DNA from: an uncultured Spirochaetaceae bacterium
GTDB taxonomy: Bacteria > Spirochaetota > Spirochaetia > Sphaerochaetales > Sphaerochaetaceae
NCBI GenBank assembly: GCA_944388955.1
Contig: CALXKJ010000006.1
Location: 1-64,000, forward strand
Direction: 5' to 3'
DNA: 64,000 nucleotides
Shown one piece after another: positions 4,366-59,961 of the stretch. The translations under genes and the position numbers were made by a program. Each line of letters starts with the position of its first letter. Within the stretch, counting starts at the first letter, position 1. The notes under the pieces are model-generated. The model had not been told where the DNA came from. It searched no databases and saw only the letters and a list, made by a program, of their open reading frames with translations.

Positions 4366-7300
4366 GTGGAGTCCCTTTTTTCTGGTTTTCAGTCCCTGCT
4401 TGAATCGCTTTCCAGCGAGAAGGCAGAAAAGAACATCTCGGAAGCACTGAATTATGTCAGGCTTGATTTCAGGAATCTTGGAGAGATTATAGGTCTTTAC
4501 CATCCTTTGGAAGTGCTCAAGATGGCTTCCTGGGAAGAGAGACGCATAGTAAGAACAAAAGCACATGACCCATTCGCTTCAGCTTCCGCGAGGCTTATGC
4601 CTGTTCTCCTTCAGTCAATCGTGCAGAGTACTTGCTTTGATGTTTCAAAAGGCATTTCATCAAATAGAGCAATCAAGGAGCGTGACTGGAGCCGCGTCAA
4701 GCAGCTTGTCGATGATGTCTCCAGAAGGCTTATAAGATGTCTTGAGAATTACACCGTTCTTGCTTTCAAAACGGAGAGAATCAGAAAAGAGGATGCCGAG
4801 CTTTTCCGAGATGCGCTATTCAATGAGATATTCCCTCCAGAGGAAGATACGGACAGAATAGAGAAGCTGTCATATATTGCATGCCTTGTGATGGAATCAG
4901 GGGGAAAAGACTGCTCTGAGCGCTATGGCGTGATTGCGGAGGAGATGACAGATGGCATGTATCGCATCTCGAAACGCGCTATAGAAGGTATAGATAAGCT
5001 TTCCGAGGATATTTCAATATATAAATCCGAGATGGAGACGCTTATTGCCCAGTTCAGAGTGTCGCATCCTGATACGACGCTGTCAGAAGATGACATCAGA
5101 AGCAGGATTGTAAGGGAGCAGGGCTGGGAGGATCGTGTATCCAGGCTGGCAGGAGAGCGTGATGGCTATGATCTTTATCGTCCAGATTTCGCTTGCAATC
5201 TCCCTTCGAATACATATAAGGTGCTTTCGGCAGCTCCCGGTACACTCGATATAAACGAGATGATGCTCAAAGGTGTATGGCCTGCGTCGATTTATCCATT
5301 CCTTCATTTCGGTGATATGTACTTCACATTCGTTGGCTCGCATCTTCAGACATATAGTACGAGAATATTGCAGGAAACTGCTGGCATGCTGCTCAGATAC
5401 AGTGATGCCGCGAAGGAAGGCTGCCTGAGAATATTCACAGAGACAGATGAAGAAGATGTATATTCTTTCGATGGCAATAAAGTGGACATGGTACTTCTTT
5501 CATCGCTGGAAGAAGTGAATGCATTCACATCCCCTGAGCTTTATTCCTCTAGGATCATGAGACGTAGCGAAGAGCTTAAGACCAAACCCAGGATTGGGCA
5601 TAAGATGCTCTTCGTTGATCCAGATAGCTTTGAAATACTTCATGATAATGGAAACAATGTATTCTCCACATCGCTCTACTTCCTCGTCAGATCATCTGAG
5701 AATGCAGATGAGAGGAGAGCTTTCTACTCAAAGATATTCGGAGAGCTGGAGATGCCTCAGCCAAGTGAGTATGACGTACTGCTTGAGGCTGATGAGAAGG
5801 CTGAGGAAGAAAAAGATGAGGAACTTCTTGATGACAGCACAACCGATGAATATGAGTATGAAGAGGCTGATGATGACGAGAAGGCCAAGGAGATTGAGGC
5901 GAAGGAGAAAGCTTTAGAGGAAGAGCTGCCACCTGCATATGAGGACTACGAGAGAAGCGTGGAAATCGAGAAATTATGCGATAAATATGCTCTTACGAGT
6001 GATATCATCAAACGCGACGAGGAAATGGATGAGGAATCTGAAGAGTATGAGCGCGAGTTCGATGATGATGAATTCGAGGATGATGCTTCCCAGCCTGATG
6101 ATTATGAGCCTGATGATATCCCTGTAGAGGAAGAAAAGCTTTATGATGAGGCTGAGAGAGATGACACATACGCTACGGAAGATGATCCTGATCAGCTTGA
6201 TTTCCTCGATGAGCTTTTCTCCGACGAGGAAAGACTCGAAGATGAGGAGCTTGTAGAAGAAGACGCGGAAGACTTCCAGAAGAGCGAGAATGAGGCTGAA
6301 AGTTTTGCGCATGATATAAAAGCTCCGACAGTATTTGCTGCAGGAGAAGCAGAAGAGGCTGATGATCCTCTCCAGGCAACAGACAGTAAGAGTACTCCTG
6401 ATACATTTGATATCTTCTCTGTGCTGAGAAAAACTCCTGCTGTGGATGAAACAGCAGAAACCCCGCTTGAAGAATCTGATACTCCAATAGAGGAAGCCAC
6501 AGCAGAAGAGTCTCCCGCAGATGAGGATGTTTTTGTCGTAGAGGAGGATTCTTCCTTTGAGATGAAAGCTCCGGCAGAGGAGGAAGCCCCAGCTGAGGAG
6601 GAAGCTCCAGCTGAGGAGGAAGCTCCAGCTGAGGAAGAAGCTCCGGCTGAGGAAGAAGCTCCGGCTGAGGAAGAAGCTCCGGCTGAGGAGGAAGCTCCGG
6701 CTGAGGAGGAAGCTCCGGCTGAGGAGGAAGCTCCGGCTGAGGAGGAAGCTCCGGCTGAGGAAGAAGCTCCGGCTGAGGAAGAAGCTCCGGCTGAGGAAGA
6801 AGCTCCGGCTGAGGAAGAAGCTCCAGCGGAGGAAGAAGCTCCAGCGGAGGAGGAAGCTCCAGCGGAGGAAGAAGCTCCAGCGGAGGAGGAAGCTCCAGCG
6901 GAGGAGGAAGCTCCAGCGGAGGAGGAAGCTCCGGCTGAAACGACTAGTTCTTTAATAGATAAAGGTCTGATACATGAGGAAGCTGGAGTCTTTGTCATGG
7001 GAGCCCCTGACAAAACACCTGATTATCCTGGAATCATAGGAAATATAGTCAGGAAAGTGGGTAATGGCAGCAGATTCGGTGCATTCCTTGCAGAATCAGA
7101 CGCATATATGATTGATTATCTTGAGAAAATCATACAATCGAGCTGGGAGAAGCAGAAGGCTGACGGCAAGGACAAGATGTTCTCAATCTTTGATTATTCG
7201 CTTTCTATTCTTGTTGCGGCTGATAAAGTCAAGGATGAGCTTAGAAAGGAAGAGCTTCTCAATAATGCGGGAGCGGTTATGTATTCCAGAGGAAAGGATT

Positions 7301-7446
7301 CATGGACAGCTCTTGTTCTTTCGATTGATAAGGATTTCACGCTTCAGGATGCATATGAGTGTAACATCTCTCCTTCGTCATTCTCTCCTTCAAACTGGAA
7401 GATCTGCCGCGTGATAGGCGAGCAGCTCATGAGGAGAGGAAGATGA
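4366..7446 (+). CDS. Large acidic cytoplasmic protein with 20 tandem APAEEE repeats, unknown function
   Basis: A 1026-aa protein that I do not recognise. The start is GTG at 4366 behind AGAGGAGA. No signal peptide or membrane segment is visible. Residues 1 to about 468 have mixed, apparently folded composition. About 469-734 are strongly acidic (Asp/Glu with many aromatic residues). Residues 735-854 are 20 exact APAEEE hexapeptides encoded by 18-bp units. Residues 855-1026 form a second apparently folded domain. The repeat should be an extended negatively charged linker between the two ends. The 3' end overlaps the next gene (ATGA), giving an operon with the phosphatase and HAD-RidA genes. 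An antisense reading frame across the repeat is a codon-bias artefact. Confidence 0.75.
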   Translation: MESLFSGFQSLLESLSSEKAEKNISEALNYVRLDFRNLGEIIGLYHPLEVLKMASWEERRIVRTKAHDPFASASARLMPVLLQSIVQSTCFDVSKGISSNRAIKERDWSRVKQLVDDVSRRLIRCLENYTVLAFKTERIRKEDAELFRDALFNEIFPPEEDTDRIEKLSYIACLVMESGGKDCSERYGVIAEEMTDGMYRISKRAIEGIDKLSEDISIYKSEMETLIAQFRVSHPDTTLSEDDIRSRIVREQGWEDRVSRLAGERDGYDLYRPDFACNLPSNTYKVLSAAPGTLDINEMMLKGVWPASIYPFLHFGDMYFTFVGSHLQTYSTRILQETAGMLLRYSDAAKEGCLRIFTETDEEDVYSFDGNKVDMVLLSSLEEVNAFTSPELYSSRIMRRSEELKTKPRIGHKMLFVDPDSFEILHDNGNNVFSTSLYFLVRSSENADERRAFYSKIFGELEMPQPSEYDVLLEADEKAEEEKDEELLDDSTTDEYEYEEADDDEKAKEIEAKEKALEEELPPAYEDYERSVEIEKLCDKYALTSDIIKRDEEMDEESEEYEREFDDDEFEDDASQPDDYEPDDIPVEEEKLYDEAERDDTYATEDDPDQLDFLDELFSDEERLEDEELVEEDAEDFQKSENEAESFAHDIKAPTVFAAGEAEEADDPLQATDSKSTPDTFDIFSVLRKTPAVDETAETPLEESDTPIEEATAEESPADEDVFVVEEDSSFEMKAPAEEEAPAEEEAPAEEEAPAEEEAPAEEEAPAEEEAPAEEEAPAEEEAPAEEEAPAEEEAPAEEEAPAEEEAPAEEEAPAEEEAPAEEEAPAEEEAPAEEEAPAEEEAPAEEEAPAEEEAPAETTSSLIDKGLIHEEAGVFVMGAPDKTPDYPGIIGNIVRKVGNGSRFGAFLAESDAYMIDYLEKIIQSSWEKQKADGKDKMFSIFDYSLSILVAADKVKDELRKEELLNNAGAVMYSRGKDSWTALVLSIDKDFTLQDAYECNISPSSFSPSNWKICRVIGEQLMRRGR
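6568..6927 (+). repeat. 18-bp minisatellite, 20 units, within the acidic protein gene
   Basis: Twenty uninterrupted 18-bp units, each encoding Ala-Pro-Ala-Glu-Glu-Glu, with only synonymous differences. Codon variants fall in blocks: units 2-4 use CCA GCT, 5-14 CCG GCT, 15-20 CCA GCG, with further GAG/GAA sub-blocks. This indicates growth by local duplication. Gains or losses keep the frame. Confidence 0.95.
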
Positions 7447-9228: not shown

Positions 9229-9245
9229 ACTATGCTGTTTTCCCG

Positions 9246-9277
9246 AAGCTTCCAGCCTGAGTTCTGGAAGCTTTTTT
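9246..9277 (+). terminator. Intrinsic terminator after the HAD-RidA gene
   Basis: AAGCTTCCAG (9246-9255) and CTGGAAGCTT (9264-9273) form a perfect 10-bp stem with an 8-nt loop, followed by further T residues. It separates this operon from his. Confidence 0.92.
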
Positions 9278-9339: not shown

Positions 9340-9368
9340 TTGACTTGCATTCCCTCTTCCTTTACCGT
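9340..9368 (+). promoter_or_regulatory. his operon promoter
   Basis: TTGACT (9340-9345), exactly 17 bp, TACCGT (9363-9368). The -35 matches consensus at five of six positions and the -10 at three. The ATG of the leader peptide begins 7 nt after the -10, so the transcript is predicted to start at, or within a base or two of, the leader start codon. Confidence 0.6.
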
Positions 9369-9374
9369 TTGAGC

Positions 9375-9422
9375 ATGGAAAGAGCAAAGAGACATCACCA
9401 CCATGCAGTTTTCAGATCATGA
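9375..9422 (+). CDS. hisL: Histidine operon leader peptide
   Basis: A 15-codon frame encoding MERAKRHHHHAVFRS and ending in TGA. Codons 7-10 (9393-9404) are four consecutive His codons, the hallmark of histidine attenuation peptides; the E. coli/Salmonella HisL has seven. It lies 30 nt upstream of an intrinsic terminator that is itself directly before hisG. There is no Shine-Dalgarno sequence; a -10 hexamer ends 6 nt before the ATG, so translation is probably leaderless. Ribosome stalling on the His codons under histidine starvation would free downstream RNA to disrupt the terminator. Too short for standard gene finders. Confidence 0.85.
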   Translation: MERAKRHHHHAVFRS

Positions 9423-9451
9423 AAGCCATGATGGGATTTTCTATAACTCAG

Positions 9452-9483
9452 GGATCTCCGTGGCGAGGTCCTTTTTTATTTTC
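9452..9483 (+). terminator. his attenuator (intrinsic terminator before hisG)
   Basis: GGATCTC (9452-9458) pairs with GAGGTCC (9465-9471), one G-U included, with loop CGTGGC and then TTTTTTATTTTC. It ends 12 nt before the hisG ATG. Upstream, AGATC (9414-9418, next to the leader stop codon) is complementary to GATCT in the 5' arm and could act as antiterminator. A second hairpin, ATCATG (9416-9421) with CATGAT (9427-9432), competes for the same bases. Confidence 0.8.
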
Positions 9484-9495
9484 TTAGGAGGCGTT

Positions 9496-10356
9496 ATGGA
9501 CGGAAGGATTATCGTAGCCATACAGAAGAGCGGGAGACTTTCAGAGAAGAGTCTTGAGATGATCAGGTCATGCGGTATTGATTTCTACGCAGACAGCAGG
9601 GCTCTGAAAGCCTCAGCTTCAGGATTCCCGCTGGATTTCCTCTTCGTGCGTGATGATGATATCCCAGGGTATGTATCAGATGGAGTTGCTGATATAGGCA
9701 TAGTTGGCAGAAACGAGCTGGATGAGTCGGGAATTGAGCTTGATGTGATACGGGATCTCGGCTTTGCATCATGCCGGCTCTCGATAGCTGCACCACCATC
9801 ATTCCCATATAGCAATCTTTCATCACTTGAAGGAAAGCGTATCGCGACGTCCTATCCGCGTATTCTTGAATCCATACTTTCCTCCAACGGCGTGAAAGCC
9901 ATACCGGTTGTAGTAGCTGGCTCTGTTGAGATTACAGTTGATGCTGGAATTGCAGACGCAATAGCTGATCTTGTGTCTACCGGAACGACGCTGAAGATGA
10001 ATGGCCTTGAGGAAAAGGAATGCATTTATCGCTCTTCCGCTGTTCTTGTTGCCCGTCCTGATATGGATAGCTGCAAGAAAGCGATTCTCAATAGTCTTCT
10101 TGAGCGTATGGATGCTGTCATGCTTGCCCGTCACAAGAAATATATTCTTTTCAATCTTCCGAAAAACAAGCTTCAGAAAGCTGCTGAGGTTATTGGCGGC
10201 ATGAAAAGCCCTACGGTGACGCCCCTGATGGATGACAATTGGATTTCTGTGCAATCTGCAGTTGATGAAAACCGATTCTGGGCAGTATTCGAGGAATTGA
10301 AGGCCCTTGGAGCGGAAGGAATACTCGTGATGAATATCGAGAAGATGACGGAGTGA
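9496..10356 (+). CDS. hisG: ATP phosphoribosyltransferase, long form
   Basis: Catalyses the first committed step of histidine synthesis, ATP plus PRPP to phosphoribosyl-ATP. The ATG at 9496 follows AGGAGG (9486-9491) and gives 286 aa beginning MDGRIIVAIQKSGRL; an open frame extends upstream but runs through the attenuator and is not credible. The PRPP-binding segment DLVSTGTTLKMNGL is near residue 160. Length indicates the hexameric long form with a C-terminal histidine-feedback domain, so no HisZ is needed, and none is present. First structural gene of the operon; the end overlaps the region of the hisD start. Confidence 0.96.
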   Translation: MDGRIIVAIQKSGRLSEKSLEMIRSCGIDFYADSRALKASASGFPLDFLFVRDDDIPGYVSDGVADIGIVGRNELDESGIELDVIRDLGFASCRLSIAAPPSFPYSNLSSLEGKRIATSYPRILESILSSNGVKAIPVVVAGSVEITVDAGIADAIADLVSTGTTLKMNGLEEKECIYRSSAVLVARPDMDSCKKAILNSLLERMDAVMLARHKKYILFNLPKNKLQKAAEVIGGMKSPTVTPLMDDNWISVQSAVDENRFWAVFEELKALGAEGILVMNIEKMTE

Positions 10357-10358
10357 TT

Positions 10359-11636
10359 ATGCTTGATTTCCTTGATTTTGATGAAAAGCTTCTCAGACGG
10401 CCCGCTGACAGCAATCCTGAACTCAGGAATACTGTCATGAATATTATTGATGATGTGAAAAAACGCGGGGATGAGGCTCTCTTTGATTATGCCGCTAGAT
10501 TTGATGGGAAGATTGAATCACTTTTCATCTCTCGTGATGAGATAGAGAAAGCAAGAGACGCAGTTCCTGACGATCTTAAGAAAGCTATTGACATGGCAAT
10601 GTGCAATATAAGGCGATTCCATGAGGCTGAAATGCCACAAGGTGAAACTGTAGAGACAGCAGAGGGCGTCGTGTGCTCACGCCGTATCGTCCCTATATCG
10701 CGATGCGGTTTGTATGTTCCGGGTGGAACAGCGCCTCTTGTATCCACAGTGCTTATGCTTGCAGTTCCCGCCTCCATTGCCGGATGCAGGGAAATCATGC
10801 TGGCAACACCGGCAAAGAATGGCAATGTAGATCCTGCCATTCTGTACGCGGCATCGGTTTCGGGTGTCACGAGTATCCTCGCAGTCGGAGGTGCTCATGC
10901 TATCGCGGCTATGGCTTATGGCACAGAAAGCGTCAAACGCTGTGATAAGATTTTCGGGCCCGGCAACAGCTTTGTCGCGGAAGCGAAGAAGATTGTCTCA
11001 GAAGACACCGCGATTGATATGGTTGCAGGTCCGTCGGAGGTCATGGTTGTCATAGACAGGACATCGAATCCTGTATATGCCGCTTCCGATCTCCTTTCAC
11101 AGGCTGAGCATGGCAGAGATAGCCAATCGATGCTTGTCATCAGGGCAGATGACAGAGCGGAAGCTGAAGCTATTTACGGCAAGGTCTATGAGGCAGTTAA
11201 TGCTGAGCTTGATCAGATAGGACGCCATGAGTTCATGCTGCCATCGCTCTCGCACTCATATGCTTTCCCTGTCTATAGTGATGAAGAAGCGTTGAATGTA
11301 GTGAACAGCTATGCGCCAGAGCATCTTATTATCAATACAGTAAACGCTGATGCGCTCTCTGAAGGTGTGGAGAATGCTGGCTCGGTCTTCATCGGTCCAT
11401 ATTCGCCTGAGTCCGCTGGGGACTACGCCTCAGGCACAAACCACACACTTCCAACTTCCGGCTGGGCTATATCTTCTTCCGGCGTCTCCGTTGATTCCTT
11501 CATAAAGAAGATAACAGTGCAGAAACTTACGAGAAAAGGCCTTGGGAATATAGCTGGAGCAATCCTTCGGCTCAGTGAGGCGGAAGGCTTACGAGCCCAT
11601 GGATATGCAGTGGAGGTCAGACTCAATGATAAATGA
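10359..11636 (+). CDS. hisD: Histidinol dehydrogenase
   Basis: Zinc- and NAD-dependent oxidation of L-histidinol to histidine, the last two steps of the pathway. About 425 aa, normal for the family. Characteristic segments are VPGGTAPLVSTVLM, HAIAAMAYGT, FGPGNSFVAEAKK and LSQAEHGRDSQ, the last containing zinc ligands. The ATG at 10359 is preferred because GGAG lies 5 nt upstream; a GTG at 10353 overlapping the hisG stop is the alternative. Its 3' end overlaps hisC by 11 bp. Confidence 0.96.
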   Translation: MLDFLDFDEKLLRRPADSNPELRNTVMNIIDDVKKRGDEALFDYAARFDGKIESLFISRDEIEKARDAVPDDLKKAIDMAMCNIRRFHEAEMPQGETVETAEGVVCSRRIVPISRCGLYVPGGTAPLVSTVLMLAVPASIAGCREIMLATPAKNGNVDPAILYAASVSGVTSILAVGGAHAIAAMAYGTESVKRCDKIFGPGNSFVAEAKKIVSEDTAIDMVAGPSEVMVVIDRTSNPVYAASDLLSQAEHGRDSQSMLVIRADDRAEAEAIYGKVYEAVNAELDQIGRHEFMLPSLSHSYAFPVYSDEEALNVVNSYAPEHLIINTVNADALSEGVENAGSVFIGPYSPESAGDYASGTNHTLPTSGWAISSSGVSVDSFIKKITVQKLTRKGLGNIAGAILRLSEAEGLRAHGYAVEVRLNDK

Positions 11637-12657
11637 GCTTCTCAACCCTTGGGTGCGTGACCTTGTTCCATATAGCACAGCACGTGATGAATTCTCCGGT
11701 GAAGCATCTGTCTATCTCGACGCAAATGAAAGCTGGTATGGGGACGGAGTCAACAGATACCCCGATCCGTTCTGCCGCGCTTTAAGACGGAAAATAGAGG
11801 AAAAGCTCTCAATTCCTTTTGATATGAGTGCGATAGGAAATGGCTCAGACGAAGTGATAGACCTTCTTATCAGGATGTTCTCAGCACCGGGGGACTCTAT
11901 CCTTATTTCCCGCCCGACATATGGCACATATTCAGTTTTCGCTAGGGCAAATGGCGTGAATGTTATCAATGTCCCGCTTCTGCCGACATTGGATTTGGAT
12001 GTTGATGGCATTCTCAGGACAATTGCTGAGAAGAGACCGAAAATCGTATTTGTATGTTCTCCTAACAATCCTACAGGGAAGGTATATCCGATAGAAGAAA
12101 TCAGGACGATTGCTGATAACAATCCTTTTATAACAGCTGTCGATGAAGCATATTCAGACTTCGCTGATGGCTTTGTATCGGCTATGACACTGATTGAATC
12201 CAATCCGCGCATCGCGGTACTCAAGACGTTCTCGAAAGCATATGGAAAAGCAGGTGCACGGCTTGGGCTTCTTGTTTCCCATCCTGATATCCAGAAGGCA
12301 TTCATGAAACTGAAAGCACCTTATAACGTTTCTCTGCTTAGTCAGCGCGAAGGCCTTGAAGCACTGTCTGATGAGGACTTTGATGCGCGTGTAAATGATA
12401 TAGTAAGGAGGCGTAACGAATTCTCAAAGTATCTCGGAACGCTTCCATATGTCATCAAAGTATATCCGTCGGAGGCTAATTTCATTCTTATCCGTGTCCC
12501 CGATGCGGTAGCTCTTTATGATTACCTTCTTTCTCTTGGAATCGTAGTACGCAACAGGTCTTCTGAGCCATTATTGGAGAACACGCTCCGTATAACCATA
12601 GGATCGGAAGATGAGATGAGAACTCTGAAGGAGGCACTCGATGCATATAAAGGATAA
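11626..12657 (+). CDS. hisC: Histidinol-phosphate aminotransferase
   Basis: PLP-dependent class I/II aminotransferase converting imidazole acetol phosphate to histidinol phosphate. The start at 11626 (MINELLNPWVRDL) has GGAGG 9 nt upstream and overlaps the end of hisD; the open frame begins earlier but without support. 343 aa. Visible motifs are DANESWYGD near the N-terminus, SPNNPTGK, DEAYSDF and the PLP-lysine segment TFSKAYGKAGARLG. Fourth gene of the leader-controlled operon. Confidence 0.95.
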   Translation: MINELLNPWVRDLVPYSTARDEFSGEASVYLDANESWYGDGVNRYPDPFCRALRRKIEEKLSIPFDMSAIGNGSDEVIDLLIRMFSAPGDSILISRPTYGTYSVFARANGVNVINVPLLPTLDLDVDGILRTIAEKRPKIVFVCSPNNPTGKVYPIEEIRTIADNNPFITAVDEAYSDFADGFVSAMTLIESNPRIAVLKTFSKAYGKAGARLGLLVSHPDIQKAFMKLKAPYNVSLLSQREGLEALSDEDFDARVNDIVRRRNEFSKYLGTLPYVIKVYPSEANFILIRVPDAVALYDYLLSLGIVVRNRSSEPLLENTLRITIGSEDEMRTLKEALDAYKG

Positions 12658-13774
12658 GAAGAAAGTCCTTTTCATAGACAGGGATGGTGTGATTGTCAAA
12701 GAACAGCAGGTGGATTCATATGAGAAAATCGAATACATCCCGCATGTCTTTGAAGCACTTCGTACCATATCCGATAAAGAAGATTATCTATTTGTGATGG
12801 TGTCGAACCAGGATGGTGTCGGTACTCCATCATTCCCATATGAAAGCTACATAGGGCCGATGGAGAGAATTCTTGAGACTCTTCGCGGCGAGCGCATCGT
12901 GTTTGATGATATCAATGTGGATTTCTCAATGCCTGAGGATGACGCGCCAACAAGAAAACCAAAGACGGCGATGATTGATCGCTATAGAAGTGATGAATAT
13001 GATATGGCAGCATCTTTCATGGTCGGAGATAGGCTTACCGATATGCTCCTGGCAAAGAATATGGGATGCCGAGGATTCCTTCTTGATAAGTCCCTGGACA
13101 TCCCTGATGAGTTAAAAAACACAGTAGCGCTTCAGACTGACAGCTGGCTTGATATCTCAGCTTACCTTGCTGGTGATGAGAGCCTCAGGATAAGAAAGGC
13201 GGTAGTAAGGAGGAAGACAAGGGAAACTGATATAGAGGTTTTACTGGCGCTTGATGGCACAGGCAGTGGTATGTACACCACAGGCATAGGATTCCTCGAT
13301 CATATGCTCAGCCAGATTATCCGCCATTCGCGTTTTGACATCGAAGGTCGCACGATAGGTGATCTTGAGGTGGATGAGCATCATACCACGGAAGATACAG
13401 CAATCGCGCTTGGCGAGGCTGTACTTGAAGCGCTCGGGGACAAGAGAGGCATAGAAAGGTATGGAAGCGAGGCTGTGATGATGGATGATACAATCGCTTT
13501 CGCGTCGATAGATTTCTCAGGCCGTCCTGATTTCATTTTCGATGCGTCCTTCACCATGGAAAGAATCGGGACATTCCCCTCGGAGCTGATACGCCATTTC
13601 TTCCGCTCGTTCAGTGCGGCAGCAAAGTGCAATCTATATCTTTCAGCAAGAGAGGGTGGAGACAGCCATCATACCGCGGAAGCGCTATTCAAGGCTTTTG
13701 CCCGCGCTATGCGGAAAGCTGTGAAGAGAATTCCGGGAGACAGTGCTCTTCCAAGTACAAAGGGGCTTCTATGA
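12641..13774 (+). CDS. hisB: Bifunctional histidinol-phosphatase / imidazoleglycerol-phosphate dehydratase
   Basis: 377 aa, two enzymes in one chain. Residues 1 to about 170 are a HAD phosphatase (FIDRDGVIV at 10-18, VSNQDGVG, SFMVGDRLTDM) that makes histidinol. Residues about 185-377 are the dehydratase, with metal-binding HHTTEDTAIALGEA and SHHTAEALFKAFARA. This fusion is typical of gammaproteobacterial and Bacteroidota his operons; many other bacteria use separate proteins. It overlaps hisC by 17 bp and hisH by 4 bp. Confidence 0.96.
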   Translation: MHIKDKKKVLFIDRDGVIVKEQQVDSYEKIEYIPHVFEALRTISDKEDYLFVMVSNQDGVGTPSFPYESYIGPMERILETLRGERIVFDDINVDFSMPEDDAPTRKPKTAMIDRYRSDEYDMAASFMVGDRLTDMLLAKNMGCRGFLLDKSLDIPDELKNTVALQTDSWLDISAYLAGDESLRIRKAVVRRKTRETDIEVLLALDGTGSGMYTTGIGFLDHMLSQIIRHSRFDIEGRTIGDLEVDEHHTTEDTAIALGEAVLEALGDKRGIERYGSEAVMMDDTIAFASIDFSGRPDFIFDASFTMERIGTFPSELIRHFFRSFSAAAKCNLYLSAREGGDSHHTAEALFKAFARAMRKAVKRIPGDSALPSTKGLL

Positions 13775-14364
13775 TAGCAGTCATCCGTTATAATGCGGGG
13801 AATATAAGGTCAGTGCTCAATGCTCTCAGCCGGCTTGGTTATGAGGGGGTGCTTACAGATGATCGAGATACAATACTCTCTGCCTCCCGTGTGATCTTTC
13901 CCGGTGTCGGCGAGGCGTCGTCTGCGATGAGCTATCTCAGAGAGCATGGACTGGATAATGTGATAAAGTCGATAGAAGCGCCATTTCTCGGTATATGCCT
14001 TGGTATGCAGCTTATGTGCTCATCATCCGACGAGGGAAATACCGAGTGCCTCGGGATTTTCCCCGATCGCGTAAAGCTCTTCCCCTCGGGCCGGGGCTAT
14101 AAGATTCCGCATATGGGCTGGAATACAATTGAGAAGAAGCCCTGTGATTTCTTCGCCGGGAATCGTGAAGAGGAATATATGTATTTTGTTCACTCATATT
14201 ATGTACCATATTCGGAATATTCTATTGCAACAACGATGTATGATGATATCTGCTTCACTTCTGCTATGCAAAAAGACAACTTCATCGGTATGCAATTCCA
14301 TCCCGAGAAAAGCGGAGAATCCGGAGCGAAGCTTCTTAAAGGATTTCTGGAGGGTGCCTCATGA
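13771..14364 (+). CDS. hisH: Imidazole glycerol phosphate synthase, glutaminase subunit
   Basis: Class I glutamine amidotransferase that supplies ammonia to HisF. The start is ATG 13771 (MIAVIRYNAGN), overlapping the hisB stop; the open frame to the left is part of hisB in another phase. 197 aa. The triad is visible: nucleophile Cys in FLGICLGMQLM and His/Glu in MQFHPEKSG. The stop overlaps the hisA start by 4 bp. Confidence 0.95.
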   Translation: MIAVIRYNAGNIRSVLNALSRLGYEGVLTDDRDTILSASRVIFPGVGEASSAMSYLREHGLDNVIKSIEAPFLGICLGMQLMCSSSDEGNTECLGIFPDRVKLFPSGRGYKIPHMGWNTIEKKPCDFFAGNREEEYMYFVHSYYVPYSEYSIATTMYDDICFTSAMQKDNFIGMQFHPEKSGESGAKLLKGFLEGAS

Positions 14365-15089
14365 TTGTCATACCCGCAATAGATATCATAGATGGCTCTG
14401 TTGTCAGGCTCACTGCAGGTGATTATTCACGGGTTTACGATTACAGTATTACGCCTGTTGAGGCTGCAAAACGTTTTGAAGATGGTGGGCTTGAGCATCT
14501 TCATGTTGTTGATCTTGATGGGGCTGAAGGTAAGGGCAGGCGGAATCTTAAGACGCTCGAGAAGATTGCAGCAGCTGTATCGATGAAGATTGATTTCGGA
14601 GGTGGTGTACGTAGCGCTGATGACGCCGCGGCTGCATTTTCTTCCGGTGCCTATGCTGTGAATATAGGCTCAATGGCAGTGAAGAATCCTGAGGAGACCA
14701 GAAAGCTTGGAGAGAAGTATCCTGGGCGGATCATCATCTCAGCAGATGTGAGAGGCGACTCAGTTGCTATCTCCGGCTGGAAAGAAGACAGCGGACTCTG
14801 CGTTATTGATTTCCTTTCGCGTTGCATTTCTGATGGCATCGCTTTCGCAGCTGTCACTGATATCTCTCGTGATGGAATGATGAGCGGTCCGTCGTCCGGT
14901 CTTTATAGAAAGCTCATTGATAAGCTTCCTTCGCTTAAGCTTATCGCGTCAGGCGGGGTTCGGGATAAAGCTGATCTTCTCAATCTTTCTGAGCTTGGTG
15001 TATATGGCGCCATAGTCGGAAAGGCATACTATGAAGGTTTCCTGACGATAAAGGAAATGAAGGAGGCTGAATGCTCGCGCGTAGGATAA
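14361..15089 (+). CDS. hisA: Phosphoribosylformimino-5-aminoimidazole carboxamide ribotide isomerase
   Basis: A (beta/alpha)8 isomerase of 242 aa, the fourth step of the pathway. [14 protein letters not shown] at the N-terminus contains the catalytic Asp, and [10 protein letters not shown] plus ASGGVRD phosphate-binding segments are present. It overlaps hisH by 4 bp and the hisF start by 19 bp, which suggests translational coupling. Confidence 0.95.
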
Positions 15090-15832
15090 TCCCATGCCTG
15101 GATGTGAAGGATGGACGTACTGTGAAAGGGGTGAATTTCGTAGCCCTCAGGGATGCAGGTTCTGCGGTGGAGCTTGCAGAAGCATATTCAGCAGCAGGTG
15201 CTGATGAGCTTGTCTTCCTCGATATAACAGCAACAAATGAGCGGAGAAAGACAATAACGGATCTTGTACGCGAGAGCGCGAGACGGATATCTATACCGTT
15301 TACGGTTGGAGGCGGTATCAGGAATGAAAGTGACGCCGCAGCTATTTTGGATGCTGGTGCTGATAAAGTCTCCGTGAATTCAGCGGCTATAAGAGAGCCT
15401 GATCTGATTTCGCATCTTGCTGGGCGCTTCGGCTCGCAATGTGTTGTCCTTGCCCTTGATGCGAGAATGAATAAGAACCTTCCTTCTGGCTATGAAGCTG
15501 TGGTCGATGGTGGAAGAACTCCGACGGGGCTTGATGCACTTGAGTGGGCAAAAAGAGCCGAAAGTCTTGGAGCTGGGGAGATTCTTCTTACATCGATGGA
15601 TAAAGATGGTACGAAAGACGGCTTTGAGTTATCGCTGACAAAGCTTATAAGCACATCGTGCGGCATTCCTGTAATCGCATCAGGAGGTGCTGGAAGTAAA
15701 GAGGATTTTCTTGATGTCTTTGAGGAAGGAAAGGCTGATGCTGCATTAGCAGCTTCTGTCTTCCATTTCCATGAGATAGAGATACAGGAACTGAAGACGT
15801 TCCTTCGTGCAAACGGTATTGCCGTGAGATAG
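15071..15832 (+). CDS. hisF: Imidazole glycerol phosphate synthase, cyclase subunit
   Basis: 253-aa (beta/alpha)8 cyclase partner of HisH that makes imidazole glycerol phosphate and [22 protein letters not shown] at the N-terminus carries the catalytic Asp, and [14 protein letters not shown] near the middle carries the second. It overlaps the end of hisA. The hisF ATG has AAGGAGGC about 8 nt upstream inside hisA. Confidence 0.96.
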
Positions 15833-15841
15833 GAGGTGTGT

Positions 15842-16450
15842 ATGGAAATTGATTTCAGAAAAGGCAATGGGCTCGTTCCTGCAATAGTGCAGGATGCTAT
15901 TACAGGCAAAGTGCTGATGCTTGGCTACATGAATGAGGAAGCATATAGAATCACAAAGGAGAAGAGGCTTGTCACTTTCTTCTCTCGCTCGAGGAATGTT
16001 CTCTGGACAAAAGGTGAGACAAGCGGCAATTATCTCAAGCTCCGCGATATGCTTATCGATTGCGATAAAGATACGATTCTTGTGAAGGCGATTCCGTCAG
16101 GTCCTGTATGCCATACAGGTGCTGATACATGCTTCGGAGAGAATAACAGACCTCAGGATGCGGAAGGCGATTCATTCCTTTTCTACCTTCAGGGTGTGAT
16201 TGAGGACCGCAAAGCACATCCGCAGGAAGGCTCGTACACAAATAAGCTTTTCTCACGCGGTATCAACAGAATTGCGCAGAAAGTCGGGGAAGAGGCAACA
16301 GAGCTTATCATAGAGGCCAAGGATGATAACAAGGAGCTCTTTCTGGGAGAGGCTGCCGACCTCATGTATCACTATCTAGTGCTTCTTGTTCAGAAAGGCT
16401 ATAGCCTCAGTGAAGTGATTGATGTGCTGAAATCCAGGCATAAAAGATAA
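15842..16450 (+). CDS. hisIE: Bifunctional phosphoribosyl-AMP cyclohydrolase / phosphoribosyl-ATP pyrophosphatase
   Basis: 202 aa, catalysing steps two and three of the pathway. ATG 15842 follows AGGAGG (15831-15836); an upstream GTG at 15836 would overlap that site and is unlikely. Residues 1 to about 105 are HisI, with [16 protein letters not shown] and the zinc-binding CHTGADTC. Residues about 110-202 are the all-alpha HisE pyrophosphatase ([15 protein letters not shown]). Last gene of the operon; a hairpin follows at once. Confidence 0.96.
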
Positions 16451-59157: not shown

Positions 59158-59961
59158 ATGAAAAAGGCATTTGGCACCAATGTTCTCGTAACTGGCGCGT
59201 CAAGCGGTATAGGGAAGTCGATAGCAGAGCTCTTTGCGAAGAATGGATACACGGTCTACGCAATCAGCCGCTCCATAGAGGAATGCACTATAGACATGGG
59301 AATGGGGAGACTCCGCCAGATCCGATGCGATGTGACTGATGAAGATTCGATTCTCGCTCTCAGAGCACGCATTGATAAGCTTTCGATTATCATCCATGCC
59401 GCGGGATGCGGAATCGCAGGAAGCGCGGAGGATGTTGATGCTGCGCTAGCGCGAAAACAGCTGGAAGTGAATTATCTCGGCCCAATTGCAATCAATCATG
59501 CATTTCTGCCACTTCTGAGGGAGAATGAGCGCTCTCTGATTATCTTCATTTCCAGTATTGCAGGCCGCATTCCTATTCCTTTCCAGAGCCATTATTCGTC
59601 ATCGAAATATGCATTGGAAGCATATGCTGAAGCCCTTGATATGGAAGCCCGTCCATTTGGGGTGCGTACAGTTCTCCTTGAGCCAGGAGACACAAAGACA
59701 GGTTTCACTTCCAGTCGTCAGAAATATATTCCTGACGACTCTCCGTACAAAGCGGCGGCAGAGAAGGCTATCTCGAGGATGGAAAGGGATGAGATGAATG
59801 GCAGAAGTCCTGAAACCGTTGCACGCATGGCTCTTAAAGCAGCTTCCAGACGCAATCCACCTGTAAGAAAGCCGATTGGAATCATGTACTCAATGCTTAT
59901 GATTCTTCCCCGTATTCTTCCGCAGAAGCTGATCCATCGCATACTCATGGCAATGTATTGA
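59158..59961 (+). CDS. Short-chain dehydrogenase/reductase
   Basis: 267 aa from ATG 59158 (MKKAFGTNVLVTGASSGIG), chosen because a good promoter ends 6 nt upstream; an ATG at 59137 is in frame. The NAD(P) site is TGASSGIG near residue 12, the NAG-like segment is HAAGCG, and the catalytic Ser/Tyr/Lys lie in FISSIAG and HYSSSKYALEAYAE. An extended C-terminus (FGVRTVLLEPGDTKTGF) is typical of classical SDRs acting on lipids or sugars. Substrate unknown. Confidence 0.9.
   Translation: MKKAFGTNVLVTGASSGIGKSIAELFAKNGYTVYAISRSIEECTIDMGMGRLRQIRCDVTDEDSILALRARIDKLSIIIHAAGCGIAGSAEDVDAALARKQLEVNYLGPIAINHAFLPLLRENERSLIIFISSIAGRIPIPFQSHYSSSKYALEAYAEALDMEARPFGVRTVLLEPGDTKTGFTSSRQKYIPDDSPYKAAAEKAISRMERDEMNGRSPETVARMALKAASRRNPPVRKPIGIMYSMLMILPRILPQKLIHRILMAMY

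Follow-up and report, generated by a model that had tools for sequence, protein, structure and literature searches.

A predicted histidine attenuator with a probably leaderless leader peptide before the his operon of spirochaetes

Introduction

Histidine attenuation is known from Proteobacteria, and Lopatovskaya et al. reportedly made a wide survey of attenuation in 2010. In the enterobacterial form, represented by hisL and the Rfam family His_leader, a short leader with a His run and an alternative pairing opposed to a terminator lie before hisG; in E. coli, a conventional 5' UTR stands before hisL. Leader-peptide attenuators of his and hisS, with His-run leaders and terminator/antiterminator structures, have been predicted in Firmicutes, in the B. 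cereus group, Peptostreptococcaceae and Erysipelotrichales (PMC9413887, PMC2965389). In Flavobacteriaceae a structured element occurs 5' of hisG, and leader-peptide attenuation is hinted at for amino-acid operons (PMC9723704).

Attenuator leaders that begin at the 5' end of the message have been described for other amino acids. The leader ORFs trpL1, leuL1/2 and ilvL of Streptomyces lividans start at the mapped transcription start (PMC8079986), poly-Cys ORFs of mycobacteria are leaderless attenuator leaders according to work cited in PMC9031893, and the 14-residue trpL leader of Sinorhizobium meliloti has an ATG that coincides with the RNA 5' end (PMC7298713). Among 18 spirochaete genomes, 6 have been inferred to contain leaderless genes, at 1.8-6.9% of genes (PMC3160421).

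Here we describe a 64,000-nucleotide stretch of DNA (the window) that forms part of the 2.1-Mb genome of a gut spirochaete of the Candidatus Ornithospirochaeta type, together with corresponding loci from related genomes. From sequence comparison and modelled folding we propose, with a probability of about 0.8, that a ribosome-mediated transcription attenuator sensing histidyl-tRNA controls the his operon of these organisms on a leaderless message.

Results

The window carries a complete his operon, hisGDC(NB)HAF(IE), on the forward strand, in the gene order of the enterobacterial operon. The first gene, hisG (9496-10356), encodes a long-form ATP phosphoribosyltransferase with a regulatory C-terminal domain (TIGR00070, TIGR03455), and is followed by hisD, hisC, a fused hisNB, hisH, hisA, hisF and a fused hisIE (10359-16450). 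Its ATG at 9496 has a Shine-Dalgarno (SD) sequence, AGGAGG, at 9487-9492. The closest named records of HisG are those of Candidatus Ornithospirochaeta stercoravium (87% identity) and Ca. O. avicola (68%), in agreement with the spirochaete host named in the original prediction, which had been made from the letters of the window. Upstream, a Rid-family gene is set apart from the his unit by its own intrinsic terminator (9245-9275, forward strand), an 11-bp stem of -15.7 kcal/mol (z -3.95) with a T-run after it. Further upstream, a 1026-residue ORF (4366-7446) contains a long array of about 20 copies of the hexapeptide AEEEAP, preceded by an acidic region.

Between the Rid-family terminator and hisG the forward strand bears, in order, (i) a -35 box TTGACT (9340-9345), (ii) after a 17-nt spacer, a -10 box TACCGT (9363-9368) that ends 6 nt upstream of an ATG at 9375, (iii) a leader ORF of 15 codons, MERAKRHHHHAVFRS (9375-9422, stop codon at 9420-9422), containing four consecutive His codons, CAT CAC CAC CAT (9393-9404; segment 1), and (iv) an intrinsic terminator (9450-9477) with a stem-loop at 9450-9473 and a T-run at 9472-9477 (-11.6 kcal/mol). 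The ORF is short and strings together codons for the amino acid that the operon makes, as expected of an attenuator leader, and all of these elements are present in the sequence as originally described; the distance from terminator to hisG, given there as 12 nt, is actually 18 nt from the end of the T-run to the hisG ATG.

To establish the distribution of this arrangement, we looked for HisG in 60 genomes, of which 36 belong to the genus, and in GTDB contigs. Long-form hisG occurred in 31 genomes of the genus, 29 of which have a His leader; four contigs bring the number of leaders to 33, and a His-run leader accompanies 33 of the 35 long-hisG loci of the genus. Outside the genus, seven of eight long-hisG spirochaete loci have one (L032-L035 and L065-L067, the exception being L036). 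The comparison with relatives, through which the original prediction could have failed, thus found both the His run (33 genus leaders) and the terminator hairpin (40 of 40 spirochaete leaders) conserved. The His run is kept even as neighbouring residues vary, and the leader features persist across loci whose HisG identity falls to about 50-60%. Trained on 23 leaders, a covariance model found at most one copy per genome, adjoining hisG, including in six genomes outside its training set. The first three codons of the leader, ATGGAAAGA (MER; 9375-9383 in the window), are nearly invariant across much of the genus, and may serve leaderless initiation.

Two sister genomes (G025 and G018; loci L017 and L021) have no leader, and their hisG directly follows another gene; at L017 an inverted repeat, AGGAGGCATGCTAGAGATTAGAATCCTCCT, precedes hisG. 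Four further loci (L038-L041, in G032, G013, G005 and G022) gave only a short-form HisG match, with another gene before it and no His leader; the preceding gene is perhaps HisZ. Two alternative his systems, long hisG with a leader and the type of L038-L041, are thus seen inside one genus. In the window's own genome no trpE was found, and no leader peptide was seen before ilvC-leuA.

The promoter was sought as the best -35/-10 pair in each upstream region, the end of the -10 box being allowed to fall 2-15 nt before the leader ATG; ATG starts only were considered. All 33 genus leaders have a TTGAC -35 box, a spacer of 17 or 18 nt, and exactly 6 nt between the -10 box and the ATG. These leaders are related by descent and do not represent 33 independent events. 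Outside the genus the distance is 6 or 7 nt in five of seven leaders, the promoters of L034 and L035 lying at other distances from the ATG. Among 30 distinct promoter regions, pairwise identity was 0.90 for the -35 box and 0.69 for the -10 box, against 0.36 for the spacer, 0.38 for the discriminator and 0.33 for the 20 nt upstream of the -35 box. Because the promoter is kept in all 33 genus leaders, and terminators occur in all 40 spirochaete leaders, the arrangement is more than a chance match.

Sigma-70 promoters initiate transcription about 7 nt after the -10 box, favouring a purine that follows a pyrimidine. Given the 6-nt distance and the C or T found at position -1 in 30 of 30 distinct promoter regions, +1 is placed on the A of the leader ATG. 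These features strongly support the prediction that his transcription starts at 9375, where the original prediction had put it. An SD-like motif was found in the 20 nt before the start in none of the 40 leaders, as opposed to 37 of 40 hisG genes; the leader, opening on an AUG free of any such motif as had been noted for the window, is very probably leaderless. Longer in-frame leaders starting upstream (for example ATGTACCGT, across the -10 box) occur in some species; they are not conserved and were rejected.

The same boxes admit another account, in which the attenuator is real and transcription starts further upstream (for example by 20-60 nt), leaving a 5' UTR devoid of an SD sequence, with TTGAC/TACCGT a fortuitous match or a secondary promoter. 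TACCGT is indeed a poor -10 box, agreeing with TATAAT at only three of six positions, for which reason a consensus promoter scan gave no match at TTGACT/TACCGT; and SD-less initiation on leadered mRNAs exists. Against this account, conservation upstream of the ATG is confined to the two boxes, their spacing to it is identical in all 33 genus leaders while the sequence just before the -35 box has diverged, and the strong terminator at 9245-9275 should let little transcription through from further upstream. We regard an upstream start as unlikely, and retain the start at the leader ATG.

The layout TTGAC-TAnnnT-ATG occurs at 36 sites in the window's genome compared with 12 in a reversed control; the distance to the ATG peaks at 6 nt, and several sites open long frames. 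Long frames whose ATG follows promoter boxes by a few nucleotides, for example at L136, L138, L140, L145, L148 and position 59158 of the window, suggest that leaderless genes are common in the organism.

In all 40 spirochaete leaders a terminator lies between leader and hisG, and the 5' arm and loop of that terminator can pair with a segment located at the leader stop codon or immediately behind it. In the window this segment 2, GCCATGATGGGATTTTC (9425-9441), directly follows the leader stop and forms the 5' side of the antiterminator; segment 3, GGGATCTCCGTGGC (9451-9464), comprises the terminator 5' arm and loop and forms the 3' side. The pairing is kept while its letters vary, as GCCA/UGGC in the window's clade, CCAGA/UCUGG in L023-L028 and GAAGUGCG/CGCAUUUC in L032 and L034. 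The original prediction had proposed a different antiterminator, between the AGATC beside the leader stop codon and GATCT in the terminator arm. AGATC is indeed present, at 9414-9418, but the AGATC/GATCT pairing occurs only in the window (L001) and in its nearest relative (L002), and the conserved pairing is that of segments 2 and 3. The His codons themselves pair with segment 2 when not covered (segment 1:2), and the stop codon lies within a few nucleotides of segment 2.

Since MAFFT alignments A1 and A2 misplace the terminator 5' arm between clades, column-wise counting of covariation was replaced by per-sequence pairing with shuffle and swap controls. In 17 representatives, segments 2 and 3 of the same leader paired at a mean of -15.3 kcal/mol, compared with -11.6 kcal/mol when partners were exchanged between leaders (p=5e-5). 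The window's own antiterminator (9425-9464) has an energy of -13.3 kcal/mol against -11.6 for the terminator. Equilibrium folding of the complete leader nevertheless favoured the terminator in nearly every ribosome state, so that the choice would have to be kinetic; full-length equilibrium folding being therefore uninformative, we folded truncated transcripts, in a crude co-transcriptional model where the transcript ended before the terminator 3' arm and a ribosome was placed at given positions.

In this model the window's antiterminator had a probability of 0.19 on naked RNA, 0.85 when the ribosome stood at the His codons and 0.38 when it stood at the stop codon; medians over the 40 leaders were 0.14, 0.71 and 0.31. 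The same crude model gave (naked, stalled and stop) 0.20, 0.36 and 0.14 for E. coli trp and 0.05, 0.56 and 0.52 for E. coli his. The median switch was 0.40, as against 0.15 in shuffled sequences; individually, only 9 of 40 leaders lay beyond their shuffles at p<=0.05. Little switching was seen in genus members L012, L019 and L020, and L067 was weak too. In silico, then, the antiterminator excludes the terminator and is within reach of a stalled ribosome, and the modelled folding changes over in the way that attenuation demands.

Parts, geometry, conservation and mutually exclusive pairings, as shown by sequence and comparison, fit the following sequence of events. RNA polymerase would start at the A of the leader ATG, and a ribosome would load on the 5'-terminal AUG independently of an SD sequence. 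When charged His-tRNA is short, the ribosome would stall at 9393-9404, covering segment 1 and leaving segment 2 free for segment 3, so that the terminator is blocked and polymerase reads through into hisG. With histidine plentiful, the ribosome would reach the stop codon at 9420-9422, its footprint lying over the start of segment 2, and the hairpin at 9450-9473 would terminate transcription. If the leader is not translated, segment 1 would pair with segment 2 and the terminator would form as well.

A terminator-controlled leader could also answer to another sensor, such as an RNA-binding protein, T-box-like sensing of tRNA or a small molecule, the His run being incidental. In Firmicutes and Actinobacteria, his genes are regulated by T-boxes (PMC9413887), and full-length equilibrium folding by itself shows no switch. 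An Rfam scan of the leader, however, at gathering and at permissive thresholds, gave no relevant match, and none to the T-box covariance model; the persistence of the His run amid changing residues and the few nucleotides between stop codon and segment 2 further argue against such a sensor, which we consider very improbable. Least credible is a constitutive partial terminator beside a non-functional short ORF: attenuation is read here from sequence and modelled folding, but ORF, His codons, promoter spacing and two exclusive pairings would hardly all be kept at HisG identities of about 50-60%. Histidine attenuation, as originally proposed, thus remains the favoured reading of the conserved His-run leaders, terminators and exclusive pairings.

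Discussion

The spirochaete his attenuator is a further case of a known attenuator type, for which the combination of histidine, a leaderless start and a spirochaete host was not found in the literature searched. The original prediction knew of no precedent for the combination. That judgement holds for the whole, in that no earlier description of spirochaete his leader peptides was found in the open-access literature; it does not hold for leaderless attenuator leaders as such, which are known from Streptomyces, Sinorhizobium and mycobacteria.

The enterobacterial system is among the closest known. It differs in that the spirochaete ATG stands at the predicted +1, in having seven His codons as opposed to three or four, and in that the spirochaete leader RNA, only about 103 nt long, matches no Rfam family (His_leader gave no hit at E<=10). 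The leaderless leaders of Actinobacteria likewise stand before amino-acid genes, some with Rho-independent terminators (PMC8079986, PMC9031893), but concern other amino acids in another phylum, and the S. lividans list includes no his leader. Sinorhizobium trpL senses Trp in an alphaproteobacterium, where the peptide and the terminated transcript both work in trans. The Firmicutes attenuators are likened here by description, and no leaderless arrangement is reported for them in the available portions of their sources; the Flavobacteriaceae hisG element differs in its Bacteroidota promoter type and in its peptide sequences.

If the proposal holds, ribosome-mediated histidine attenuation extends to Spirochaetota, and the comparison suggests that leaderless attenuator leaders are not limited to Actinobacteria and Sinorhizobium. 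The large comparative set, with its strictly fixed distance from promoter to AUG, permits a direct test between two possibilities: that leaderless initiation is simply tolerated, or that attenuation requires it to couple ribosome and polymerase in time.

The origin of the arrangement may lie outside the phylum. In a HisG tree with an E. coli reference, the long-form HisGs of spirochaetes, L036 apart, fall into a single group (support 97/82) that adjoins Bacteroidales HisG (96/90), among Bacteroidota sequences. Many Cytophagales hisG genes have His-rich leaders; 40 of these had a TAnnTTTG box near the ATG, located 6-10 nt upstream of it in 36, mostly with TTG 22 nt further up, so that near-leaderless his leaders occur outside the spirochaetes too. 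In two Bacteroidales leaders (MIHHHSI) the start lies 17-18 nt after the box. The peptides of Cytophagales and spirochaetes show no resemblance, and the near-leaderless leader may have come along with hisG or may have evolved on two occasions. Tentatively, and at somewhat less than even odds, we envisage one class of his attenuator spanning Spirochaetota and Cytophagales, in which (near-)leaderless initiation is fixed and selected, the promoter being locked to the leader AUG so that a ribosome loads once the RNA 5' end emerges, and which would have reached spirochaetes with a Bacteroidota-type hisG.

Among the Bacteroidota hisG loci (L070-L128), Cytophagales leaders are conserved and end in HHFHHSS. 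They often show TCCTCC-stop-GGAGGA around the stop codon and no obvious U-tract terminator, and their mechanism may be different.
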